IMG/VR virus record: IMGVR_UViG_3300020469_000088
Coordinates: 1 to 42,984 of that record
Reading direction: 5' to 3' (one strand)
Length of the DNA stretch: 42,984 bases
Source: a virus
Each line of letters begins with the position of its first letter. The stretch's first letter is position 1. Positions 7,182-10,730 of this stretch are shown here, one piece after another. Under the pieces are notes generated by a model. The model saw only the letters and a list, made by a program, of their open reading frames with translations, was not told the origin of the DNA and ran no database searches. A program made the position numbers and the translations under genes.

Positions 7182-7334
7182 GGTATAAACCCTTTCAAGG
7201 TTCTGAGATATGGGGCAGCGTGTTTCCCCGTTTGCTGTGAATACACTATGCCCATATAATAACATAGGAGTCAAGCAAATAATTGCAATAATAGTGAAAT
7301 AATTTAAAACAACTTAAAGTTGATCAGAGCCGGG

Positions 7335-7570
7335 CTAATACAACTTAAAGGCGATACAACCTAAGGTTGCTCAGAGTTAAACTAATACAACCTATGGGCG
7401 ATACAACCTATGGGTTATTAGAATCGTTCTAATACAACTTTAAGGCGATACAACTTATACGGTGCTTAGAATCATTCTAATCAACTTAAAGGCGATACAA
7501 CCTGAAGCTGTTTTAGAATCGTTCTAATCTACCTTAAGCTGATCACCTTAAAGGCGAGCGAGTAAAATAA
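7335..7570 (+). repeat. 47-bp iteron array, about five units
   Basis: Units start at 7335, 7382, 7429, 7477 and 7524, each beginning CTAAT(A)CAAC or similar. The core GGCGATACAAC occurs at 7350, 7397, 7444 and 7491, exactly 47 bp apart. Three units end in the palindrome TTAGAATCRTTCTAA, at 7418-7432, 7466-7480 and 7513-7527. Partial cores AAAGGCGAG follow at about 7550 and 7584. Both halves of the unit are conserved, so this is not a repeat-spacer array. It fits protein-binding iterons for replication or transcription. Confidence 0.85.
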
Positions 7571-7625
7571 AATTCACTCAACCTAAAGGCGAGTGGCTCT
7601 GAATCTGACTCTGAGTAATACTATG

Positions 7626-7820
7626 ACCCCTACCATGGGAAATAGCCGGACCCCTACCATGGGAAATAGCCCTACCGTGGGAAATAGCCTCGCTCCGCTC
7701 GTGGGGTCTGAGTCATACTCTGAGTAATACTATGACCCCTACCGTGGGAATTGGTTTTGCTCCGCAAGCGGCTCTGAGTCATACTAATAGTCTTACTCTG
7801 ACCCCTACCGTGGGAAATAG
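7626..7820 (+). repeat. GTGGGAA repeat cluster A (five copies)
   Basis: Five direct copies of ACCCCTACCRTGGGAAATAG lie at 7626, 7650, 7670, 7735 and 7801; the fourth ends AATT. Interspersed are copies of CTGAGTAATACTATGA and GAGTCATACTAATA. The core CCTACCGTGGG is a near-palindrome. All copies point the same way. A related cluster lies at 11317-11446 and an exact 19-base match sits inside the capsid gene. Confidence 0.85.
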
Positions 7821-8052
7821 TCTGAGTAATCATATGATTAAGAGCCGTAGTTCATCCGTTTACTCAGGAAAATACTAAGACTCGGACTAAGAGTTTCCCC
7901 CCATCTGGACCTAATACTTTTGTTGCCCATAAGTCCAATTATCATTAGTTCTCACAAAATCTCAGAGGTTAAACCCCGGTCAACAAAAGATATTCTCGCA
8001 GAGTACATTCCTGGACTTAACTATTAGCAAACCTCATAGAATAAATCTCCGC

Positions 8053-8081: not shown

Positions 8082-8143
8082 GATCTTGGGTCAGAATGTC
8101 TCTGGCCTGCTCACTCTGAGCTTTTTCTAATAGGAGAACTATT

Positions 8144-9730
8144 ATGATTTCCGAAGAACTAGCAGATGAATACATGCCAGACCATTGTGTAAGGCATTGG
8201 GGATTAGCACTTGCTAATTTCCCTAAGTATGAACTAGGAGACGACCCTGATCCTCTAGGTCTTGCTCGTAGGGTAAGAAACCACTTTCATTCCAGAGTAA
8301 ATCAAATAGCTCAGGAGGAAATAGATGTCTATTATCACGCTGTGAGAAAAGCACGGTTAAAAGTTAATAACGATCACATACATGGTTCTATTAGTGATGA
8401 ACAGTGTGACGCTTTATTACACATGCTCAGGAATACTTATTCTGCATATCGGTCGGTAGTTAGTGACCAGATAGAGCTAATAGTAAATACTATGTTGCCA
8501 AACCATGACCTTAAGTCTGCGGGTTTTCTGGCGCTTTGGTTAGACCAGAAGGGCAGAGATCGTGGCAGAGAGGGGCGCATTATCTTGCGTTCTGGCAAAG
8601 GTATCAGAAAGATGTTTCCTTGTCTTACTGATAAAGAAATCGAGACCCTCAATGACGAATATCGCCATGAGTTTTCGGTCAAGGAATTGACCATTCACTT
8701 TGGTCAGACTAGGGCAGACTTTGTTCGTGCCAAACACGGACCCATAGGAAAACTAGAGAACCCAGATACTAGCTCTGGTCGTAAGTTCCTTGGCAACAGC
8801 TGTATGAGATATGACTTTATCGACACTCGGAAGTTGCCTATGCAACCTACTGAGGCTTATGCCTCTGGAGATTTTACTGTCTACTGGACAGAGGATAACT
8901 CTGGCAAAATATGCAGTAATGTTATTGTATATGATGCCTCAGAGAATGATCCTGTAGCCGCACCAATATACGGCGTATGTGAAAAGTCTATTGACACTTT
9001 GCAAGAGCTCTTGTCGGAGAAAGGTATTGAGCTTTACAGTCATCACAATGGTAAAAGATGGTCAGGTGCTAGGCTCTTACGTTTTGACTATGAGGATGGC
9101 GAATATGTTGGCCCATACCTTGATGTCCAACCTCAAATTCTTAGGAAAACCGGTTGTGGTAAATATCTAGTTGTAGACCGTCACGGTGATATTAGTGGCA
9201 CTACTTATCAAGGTATCTTATACGGTGACGGACAGAGCTGCTCCTGTTGCAATGATAGTATTCGTCGGGGTAATGAGTATTACTATAATCACGATACTTA
9301 TTGCTCTGACTGTTACCATGACCGTATCAGGCAGTGTAGCTATTGCGGCGATGACACAGAGATAGACGACTGCACCACGGTGCAGACTGAAACCTCTGAT
9401 TACGAGGAATACTGTTCTCACTGTACGCATCAGCATACTGTTGTCACCTGTAGCGGCGAGACTTGGCTAGAGAGTGACACTAGGGTAACTGCAAATGGTG
9501 ATACTATTAGTGTTGATGAATATGACGCTTCTTACTTTACCTCTGACTGGGACGGGGAAATCTATCCAGATCATAACTTAGCCCCATTAGAGAACGGTGA
9601 CTCTGTATCTCTTACAGAAGTAGCAAATCACCCAGACTATTACCTTTGTGATGACACTGGACTATGGAAAGAAAAACCAGATGACAACTCAGACGACAAC
9701 AACCCGACAACCCCTATTACTGAAAGCTAG
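8144..9730 (+). CDS. Cysteine-rich zinc-site protein, first rightward gene (528 aa)
   Basis: I do not recognise a named family. The N-terminal 300 residues are largely helical and charged, with many His and Arg residues early on. Residues about 366-430 carry four paired cysteine knuckles (C366/C369, C387/C390, C398/C401, C424/C427) that resemble a double treble-clef or LIM-like zinc module. The tail is acidic, with DNSDDNNPTTP near the end. Such modules usually mediate protein or nucleic-acid contacts. AGGAG lies about 8 bases upstream of the ATG. As the first gene after the rightward promoter it may act early in host takeover or regulation, which is inference. A metallopeptidase gene follows after 7 bases, so the two are probably co-expressed. 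Confidence 0.75.
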   Translation: MISEELADEYMPDHCVRHWGLALANFPKYELGDDPDPLGLARRVRNHFHSRVNQIAQEEIDVYYHAVRKARLKVNNDHIHGSISDEQCDALLHMLRNTYSAYRSVVSDQIELIVNTMLPNHDLKSAGFLALWLDQKGRDRGREGRIILRSGKGIRKMFPCLTDKEIETLNDEYRHEFSVKELTIHFGQTRADFVRAKHGPIGKLENPDTSSGRKFLGNSCMRYDFIDTRKLPMQPTEAYASGDFTVYWTEDNSGKICSNVIVYDASENDPVAAPIYGVCEKSIDTLQELLSEKGIELYSHHNGKRWSGARLLRFDYEDGEYVGPYLDVQPQILRKTGCGKYLVVDRHGDISGTTYQGILYGDGQSCSCCNDSIRRGNEYYYNHDTYCSDCYHDRIRQCSYCGDDTEIDDCTTVQTETSDYEEYCSHCTHQHTVVTCSGETWLESDTRVTANGDTISVDEYDASYFTSDWDGEIYPDHNLAPLENGDSVSLTEVANHPDYYLCDDTGLWKEKPDDNSDDNNPTTPITES

Positions 9731-9737
9731 GTGGAGA

Positions 9738-10730
9738 ATGCATAATTTTATTGAGATGTTGGCCTATTGCCGACCACAACACTCAGAAACTCAGAGAGAG
9801 TTTTGCGAGAAATACCTCAGACCAGTATTTGGTCAACCTGACAATGAAGGAAATTATATTGTTGTAGTAGGACATGCTCCGACCATTTGCTTTGCTAGTC
9901 ACCATGACACTGTTCACAAGTCAGACGGCATACAAAAGGTATTAGTCAAGGGTGACAATGCTTCCTTGCCGCCTATCTCAGACAGCTCTTGCCTTGGTGC
10001 AGACTGTACTACTGGCATATGGTTGCAGCTAGAGATGATCAGAGCAGGTGTCGAGGGTGTCTATGTTGTCCATGCCTCAGAAGAGATCGGTTGCCTAGGT
10101 TCCAGATACATTGTCGGACGTAATCCTAGATGGTTACAAAGACTAAATGCCGTAATATCGTTCGACCGTAAGGGTACGGAAAGTATTATTACGCATCAGA
10201 TGGGTTTGCGTACTTGCTCAGATGCCTTTGCCGTATCATTAGCAAAGATCTTAGACCTACATCTGCGTCCAGACGATACCGGCGCTTATACAGATAGCAA
10301 CGAATATGCCTCTGATGTCTCAGAGTGTACTAATCTGTCTGTAGGCTATTACGGCCAACACACTAAGAACGAGCATCAAGACCTATACTATCTCAAGCAA
10401 CTCAGAGATGCTCTTGTAGCCGCAGACTGGTCTCAGCTAGTCATATCTCGTGACCCGTCTGTCTCAGAATACAAGTACGAACGTGGCGGCTGGGACAGTG
10501 ACTGGACTCGTCTTAATAGGCAATACAATACCTCTGTCTTTTTCGATGACGTGTACCCTGCTCAGATAGGTAGCTCAGAACGTGACGAACGGGACGACCT
10601 TACAGACCTGCTCCGAGAATACCCTGCCCAGATAGCAGACTGGCTAGATGCTAATAACATTACCTATGATGACCTCATACAAGAGCTAGACCTTGTAGAC
10701 CCTAAGATGCGGCGTGTTACCTACTGGTAA
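9738..10730 (+). CDS. Zn-dependent aminopeptidase-like protein (M20/M28/M42 type)
   Basis: The two-metal exopeptidase pattern is complete by eye. In the 330-residue form there is H55-x-D57 in SHHDTVH, D89 in GADCTTG, E115-E116 in HASEEIG, D143 in SFDRKG and H208 in GYYGQH. It should hydrolyse peptides in the cytoplasm. I chose ATG at 9738, after AGGTGGAGA; the frame is open upstream into the preceding gene, but that would overlap it by 80 bases. The C-terminal about 100 residues (YERGGWDSDWTRLN onward) are acidic and not part of the catalytic core. It could supply amino acids, mature a phage protein or degrade a host peptide. The pairing with the zinc-site protein is notable. Confidence 0.8.
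   Translation: MHNFIEMLAYCRPQHSETQREFCEKYLRPVFGQPDNEGNYIVVVGHAPTICFASHHDTVHKSDGIQKVLVKGDNASLPPISDSSCLGADCTTGIWLQLEMIRAGVEGVYVVHASEEIGCLGSRYIVGRNPRWLQRLNAVISFDRKGTESIITHQMGLRTCSDAFAVSLAKILDLHLRPDDTGAYTDSNEYASDVSECTNLSVGYYGQHTKNEHQDLYYLKQLRDALVAADWSQLVISRDPSVSEYKYERGGWDSDWTRLNRQYNTSVFFDDVYPAQIGSSERDERDDLTDLLREYPAQIADWLDANNITYDDLIQELDLVDPKMRRVTYW

Follow-up and report, generated by a model that had tools for sequence, protein, structure and literature searches.

In the KP34-like phages and in Phimunavirus, a 'putative peptidase' of the family analysed here belongs to the core early genes, according to two core-gene reports (PMC4411677, PMC6115819). They list it, in the T7-like podovirus gene pairs KP34 gp10-gp11 and PhiM1_09-PhiM1_10, right after a 'hypothetical protein' which is homologous to the zinc protein described below, and both genes lie in the early region before the primase. 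In the passages of these reports on the two genes we found no discussion of the linkage or the function of the two genes. A different phage protein, Rac of the phiKMV-like phages, provokes cleavage of the host RNAP alpha (PMC7552054). It belongs to the true GNATs, has a pocket for acetyl-CoA and depends on proteases of the host.

Here we examined a window of 42,984 nt, which is the entire virus record IMGVR_UViG_3300020469_000088. The original prediction, made from the letters of the DNA, was that a 528-residue protein with four CxxC pairs and a peptidase with five metal ligands, 7 nt further on, form a unit in the early arm. Both open reading frames, 8144-9730 and 9738-10730, and the conserved ligands bear this description out. 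The features are:

8132 to 8136, plus strand: AGGAG, a Shine-Dalgarno-like site ahead of the P0001 ATG at 8144 (sequence)
8144 to 9730, plus strand: P0001, zinc protein of the SCM family, 528 residues, ATG start, first gene of the rightward arm (iterative HMM, AF2)
8144 to 8518, plus strand: helical N-terminal part of P0001, residues 1-125, with two long helices at 41-79 and 85-117 (AF2 secondary structure)
8519 to 9178, plus strand: SCM alpha/beta core of P0001, residues 126-345 (alignment; weak GNAT-like Foldseek matches)
8798 to 8806, plus strand: Ser-Cys-Met motif (P0001 residues 219-221), where conservation within the core is highest (alignment)
9239 to 9313, plus strand: predicted first zinc module of P0001, C366xxC369...C387xxC390, weakly LIM-like, family-wide (alignment, profile)
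9335 to 9424, plus strand: predicted second zinc module of P0001, C398xxC401...C424xxC427, conserved in part (AF2, alignment)
9738 to 10730, plus strand: P0002, probable clan MH exopeptidase (PHROG 4191), 330 residues, ATG start (profile, fold, ligands)

The ATG of P0002 at 9738 follows the stop of P0001 after 7 nt. This start is supported by the relatives, which begin at the same Met; a longer GTG frame from 9648 is a possible alternative. A GGTGGAG motif abuts the ATG. Because this is closer than the normal Shine-Dalgarno spacing, translational coupling is likely. P0001 has its four CxxC pairs at residues 366/369, 387/390, 398/401 and 424/427; in a composition-preserving shuffle at least four occurred with p=0.002. 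Both genes are under purifying selection: dividing dN by dS, we obtained approximately 0.14-0.24 for the gene of the zinc protein and 0.05-0.16 for that of the peptidase. Upstream of P0001, the intergenic region between divergent genes (window 7270-7850) carries iteron-like repeats with a 47-nt spacing, TTAGAATCGTTCTAATACAACTT / ACAACTTAAAGGCGAT, followed by five copies of CCCTACCRTGGGAAATAG; these repeats may mark an origin of replication or a site for a regulator.

The single sequence of P0001 had no confident profile or database match and no PHROG, and PDB sequence searches with P0001 and with its alignment returned nothing significant. An iterative HMM over the fetched loci joined it to Pasto gp4, KpV475 gp10 (136 bits), PP90 orf8 (103 bits) and BDU-MI-1. 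We call this the SCM family, a name coined here from the most conserved motif. KpV475 gp10 and PP90 orf8 are PHROGs 6980 and 13313, both without a listed function, which were matched by 16 and 5 members, respectively, of the SCM alignment (A3); by sequence the two PHROGs are divergent branches of the family. P0001 has the homologous core with SCM, Y276 and PYxD, and the first CxxC..CxxC module, by which the family is recognised. Over 81 diverse members S219, C220, Y276, D327, G357 and C366 were invariant (S219 and C220 in 81/81), and M221 (78/81), P235, Y239, D243, P324 and Y325 nearly so. At core residue 259, 75/81 members have Arg, but the clade to which the window belongs has Asn (window 8918-8920), possibly a change of activity or specificity. 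An SCM protein of Vibrio phage vB_VpP_DE18 (MZ182247.1, 40719-41903) is labelled 'putative structural protein', probably a mis-annotation.

The cysteines of the first module are kept throughout the family (C366 81/81, C369 77/81, C387 76/80, C390 77/81); the first two CxxC pairs are predicted to form one zinc site. C401, C424 and C427 are retained by just 24-30 of the 81 relatives. The 'four-knuckle' protein of the original prediction does have its four CxxC pairs, yet they are not knuckles of the retroviral type, and the term overstates the common feature since the second set is conserved in a minority only. Past the second module look-alike repeats without cysteines run to about residue 512. 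A scan of the local open reading frames for the zinc module found no other protein to which it is fused; the sole extra find was a broken-off piece in locus L151. Pfam LIM matched weakly in 11/81 members, with a best E of 0.0023, and LIM structures were matched at weak E-values only; any likeness of the modules to LIM or treble-clef fingers is weak.

In the AF2 model of P0001 (mean pLDDT 91.4, pTM 0.57) the N-terminus is helical and the core alpha/beta, and hairpin-helix units resembling zinc fingers are strung together. N-termini vary highly in length and sequence across the relatives. When the model was compared with the PDB by Foldseek, nearly all of the top 50 matches were GNATs or FemX; the best reached E 0.02 and prob up to 0.98, with TM <0.5 and rmsd >5 A, and no match was at E<=0.001. 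The hhalign probability of SCM against the GNAT profile was 0.4%, from shallow alignments. Pfam GNAT was not found among the A3 members, and a CoA P-loop (QxxGxG) was not seen in the aligned family. This sub-threshold fold match makes 'GNAT-like' a lead for the core and not a membership. Among viral models the strongest matches were mostly uncharacterised phage proteins, several of them recognisably of the SCM family, and next came phage 'amidoligase enzyme' and 'LIM domain' proteins. By sequence, amidoligase membership was not supported, at an hhalign probability of 0.4% with an alignment of 5 sequences, and neither was PcfJ membership, at 0.2% with an alignment of 3 sequences. A known defence component was set aside after six pair proteins had no match in PADLOC, which omits most anti-defence proteins.

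P0002 matched the full-length profile of PHROG 4191, 'peptidase', over residues 3-318 (E 3.7e-79), as did all 82 aligned relatives, and scored 22.4 bits against Pfam M28 (PF04389), barely over the cut-off of 21.3. The metal ligands are H55, D89, E116, D143 and H208 and the general base is E115. In 82 relatives D89, E115, E116, D143 and H208 are invariant and H55 is at least 90% conserved. The AlphaFold2 model (mean pLDDT 88.6, 82 sequences) had 219 Foldseek matches at E <0.001 and resembles PepT, TET/M42 and related aminopeptidases (best E 4.7e-10, PepT 3gb0); by sequence the profile also matched PepT-type tripeptidases (hmmsearch E 2e-11). A catalytic domain of about residues 1-240 is followed by a helical tail, and the secondary structure has no lid or dimerisation insert of the M20/M42 type. 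By profile, ligands and modelled fold P0002 belongs to the di-zinc exopeptidases of clan MH and is probably an aminopeptidase of the PepT/M42/M28 type. Its relatives occur in 375 deposited phage records. In addition to the KP34-like phages and Phimunavirus, where it is a core early gene, such a peptidase is present in Maculvirus. Thus, the notion that a peptidase in the early arm is unusual is not correct.

The pair of SCM gene and peptidase gene is present in hundreds of deposited genomes, with carriers among unrelated phages, prophages and some plasmids, so the idea that no existing system has this pairing had to be dropped. Carriers are lytic Autographiviridae and other phage contigs, some of them integrase-bearing; the bacterial genomes belong to Sphingomonadales, Rhizobiales and others. 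In Drulisvirus and Phimunavirus the pair is located in the early region ahead of the primase, and Maculvirus and a Cronobacter phage have the same gene order. In Pasto an ArdA antirestriction gene is immediately upstream, the one such case in the scan of non-redundant loci. Integrase is the family that flanks the pair most often, and in uncultured-phage loci of the L042-L074 type a tyrosine integrase gene is often directly 3' of the peptidase. A conserved third gene was not found; integrase, ThyX, primase and ParB recur as lineage neighbours only. Judged by terminase (81% identical) and DNA polymerase (56% identical), the window's nearest cultured relative is Roseobacter phage CRP-6 (MK613348.1), which has a similar gene order. 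CRP-6 lacks both the SCM and the peptidase gene, so the pair is accessory.

Plasmid copies have varied surroundings. The conjugative Sphingopyxis plasmid pMC4 has the order DUF2958-ParB-SCM-M28-toprim, with HEPN and Abi genes near the pair. On Limnohabitans pTEGF4 SCM-M28 is followed about 5 kb on by a methylase and a relaxase. Methylobacterium plasmid pVL1_2 carries SCM-SCM-PEP and SCM-PEP in tandem (L218, 12826-22071), all annotated as hypothetical proteins, and tandem copies also exist in a Mesorhizobium genome. Bradyrhizobium symbiosis plasmids have a 348-residue SCM piece without zinc modules and with no annotated peptidase nearby.

How strict is the linkage? We surveyed loci which had been retrieved through their similarity to the peptidase and which extend at least 1.5 kb upstream; they are not all independent (62 were left once near-duplicates were removed). 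SCM adjoins the peptidase in 76/78 of the viral loci, in 38/45 of those from bacterial genomes and in 4/4 of those from cultured phages. A lack of co-occurrence elsewhere had been named as the finding that would count against the prediction, and this survey favours it. Gaps between the genes are mostly -13 to +31 nt. The exceptions which lack SCM despite sufficient room, seven genome and two viral loci, have distant peptidases. In ten viral loci SCM is on the opposite strand at 0.6-1.6 kb from the peptidase (L085, L087-L092, L096, L099, L056), and in one genome locus (L108) the order is swapped with SCM downstream. This demonstrated that the linkage survives rearrangement. Protein distances of SCM and peptidase correlated over 59 loci with r=0.85, compared to a permutation maximum of 0.14.

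The reverse, SCM-first test was based on record counts and whole genomes and not on an unbiased contig scan. Phage records per host genus with SCM and with peptidase numbered 231 and 230 for Klebsiella, 42 and 42 for Vibrio, 10 and 10 for Escherichia and 4 and 4 for Shigella; 314 phage records had SCM relatives of the KpV475 type. All 11 SCM matches in ten whole genomes fell into pair loci, and 384 further genomes from the class to which G010 belongs contained none, so SCM is specific for mobile elements there. P0003 as a query found nothing. Taken together, the linkage is obligate-like, the partners co-evolve, and the pair is confined to mobile elements in the genomes sampled. The two genes act as a unit in phages, prophages and plasmids, as was claimed, even where inverted or swapped in order; linkage and co-evolution rule out that they are housekeeping genes or chance neighbours. 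Almost certainly they make up one two-part tool, which the mobile element employs shortly after it has entered a cell. Of the two, SCM is the gene that evolves faster, as expected for a recognition partner.

What might such a unit do? Our tentative reading, to which we give somewhat less than an even chance, is a co-inherited module for entry or early infection in which P0001 picks out a protein of the host, perhaps modifying it as well, for trimming by the peptidase, so that a defence or a regulator is disarmed. The pair would be expressed when the mobile element enters or early in infection. The LIM-like zinc modules and the helical N-terminus of P0001 would bind a protein, and the invariant Ser-Cys/Tyr/Asp set of the core could form either a pocket for binding or an additional active site. 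P0001 would thereby recognise, and might chemically alter, the host protein; the exopeptidase would trim the selected protein and so disarm a defence or regulatory factor. The position in the entry region, the ArdA adjacency, carriage by plasmids and the faster evolution of the partner speak for counter-defence or takeover and less for a nutritional or structural role. From these data we infer a physical complex of P0001 and P0002, a protein as target and a role in counter-defence or takeover; selection of a host target by the zinc protein and counter-defence, both already proposed from the sequence, are possible. Amino-acid scavenging, which had also been proposed, would have the peptidase degrade host peptides for phage protein synthesis with P0001 as a helper. 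Peptide recycling is an established function of clan MH exopeptidases, PepT among them, and P0002 matches PepT in fold and sequence, yet the near-obligate large zinc partner, the plasmid copies and the absence from CRP-6 make this the least probable of the explanations considered.

Possibly P0001 is an enzyme in its own right. Much as protein-modifying enzymes of phages do, a GNAT-like transferase core might add a tag of acyl, aminoacyl or peptide type to a protein of the host; this tag or the substrate would then be trimmed or edited by the exopeptidase. The many GNAT and FemX structures in the top 50, the amidoligase and LIM proteins next in the viral comparison and the chemistry suggested by invariant C220, Y276 and D327 are consistent with this, as is the cleavage of host RNAP alpha provoked by the GNAT Rac (PMC7552054). 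However, no PDB fold match attained E<=0.001, TM stayed <0.5 with rmsd >5 A, profile probabilities for GNAT, amidoligase and PcfJ were <1% (shallow alignments) and QxxGxG was not seen; we regard it as unlikely. That the peptidase is a maturase or regulator, with the zinc protein as its substrate and P0001 as the sole effector, would agree with the strict pairing, the co-evolution, the near-overlapping genes and the faster change of P0001. Highly variable N-termini are odd for the substrate of a conserved exopeptidase, however, and the peptidase is the more conserved partner, which renders this proposal quite unlikely. A role in defence or superinfection exclusion, in which the pair guards the carrier cell or its replication from other mobile elements, would likewise agree with its carriage by temperate phages and plasmids; bacterial genomes and plasmids, one of them conjugative, have the pair, and HEPN and Abi genes are near it on pMC4. 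Yet it is a core early pair of lytic Autographiviridae, for which protection of the host is of little use, and PADLOC had no match. This role we consider very unlikely.

The trimming of a host protein selected by P0001, our preferred reading, can be extended. The pair might represent a new kind of targeted proteolysis in which a partner guided by zinc and dependent on a cysteine would mark or present a specific host protein, from which its own exopeptidase would then take off residues, one shared off-switch for the same defence or regulator in lytic phages, prophages and conjugative plasmids. In this far-reaching form the proposal is rather doubtful. The interest lies in the breadth and strictness of the pairing: SCM partner and peptidase span phages of Klebsiella, Pectobacterium and Vibrio as well as bacterial genomes and plasmids. 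That the pairing is obligate-like in lytic phages and on plasmids alike points to a single conserved target in the host, with which all of them need to deal at entry, and identification of this target would reveal a widespread defence or host control point.

Compared to known systems, P0002 has the catalytic fold and the five ligands in common with the PepT-like tripeptidases (3gb0, 3rza), TET/M42 and Pfam M28. In contrast to these the phage family has no lid or dimerisation domain, has motifs of its own, FDR...ITHQ and SVGY..H, and comes with a partner gene attached. The GNAT fold of Rac, which is linked to proteolysis of a host protein, is weakly suggested for P0001, likewise a phage protein; unlike Rac, P0001 has no acetyl-CoA pocket signature and has its own peptidase partner. 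Rac may serve, by analogy, as a precedent for an acyltransferase coupled to host-protein proteolysis. With ArdA and plasmid entry genes the pair shares the setting, i.e. the upstream ArdA of Pasto and the plasmid copies near ParB, toprim and relaxase; there is no sequence relation, and this is an association only, with one ArdA case. Open-licence papers on M28-peptidase anti-defence and on Drulisvirus takeover had nothing on the pair, and a description of it as a system was not found in the open-licence literature. Already known are each of the two genes, in sequence databases and core-gene tables, and the peptidase family. The window is a marine member of the pair that the KP34-like phages and Phimunavirus also carry, and not its first example.
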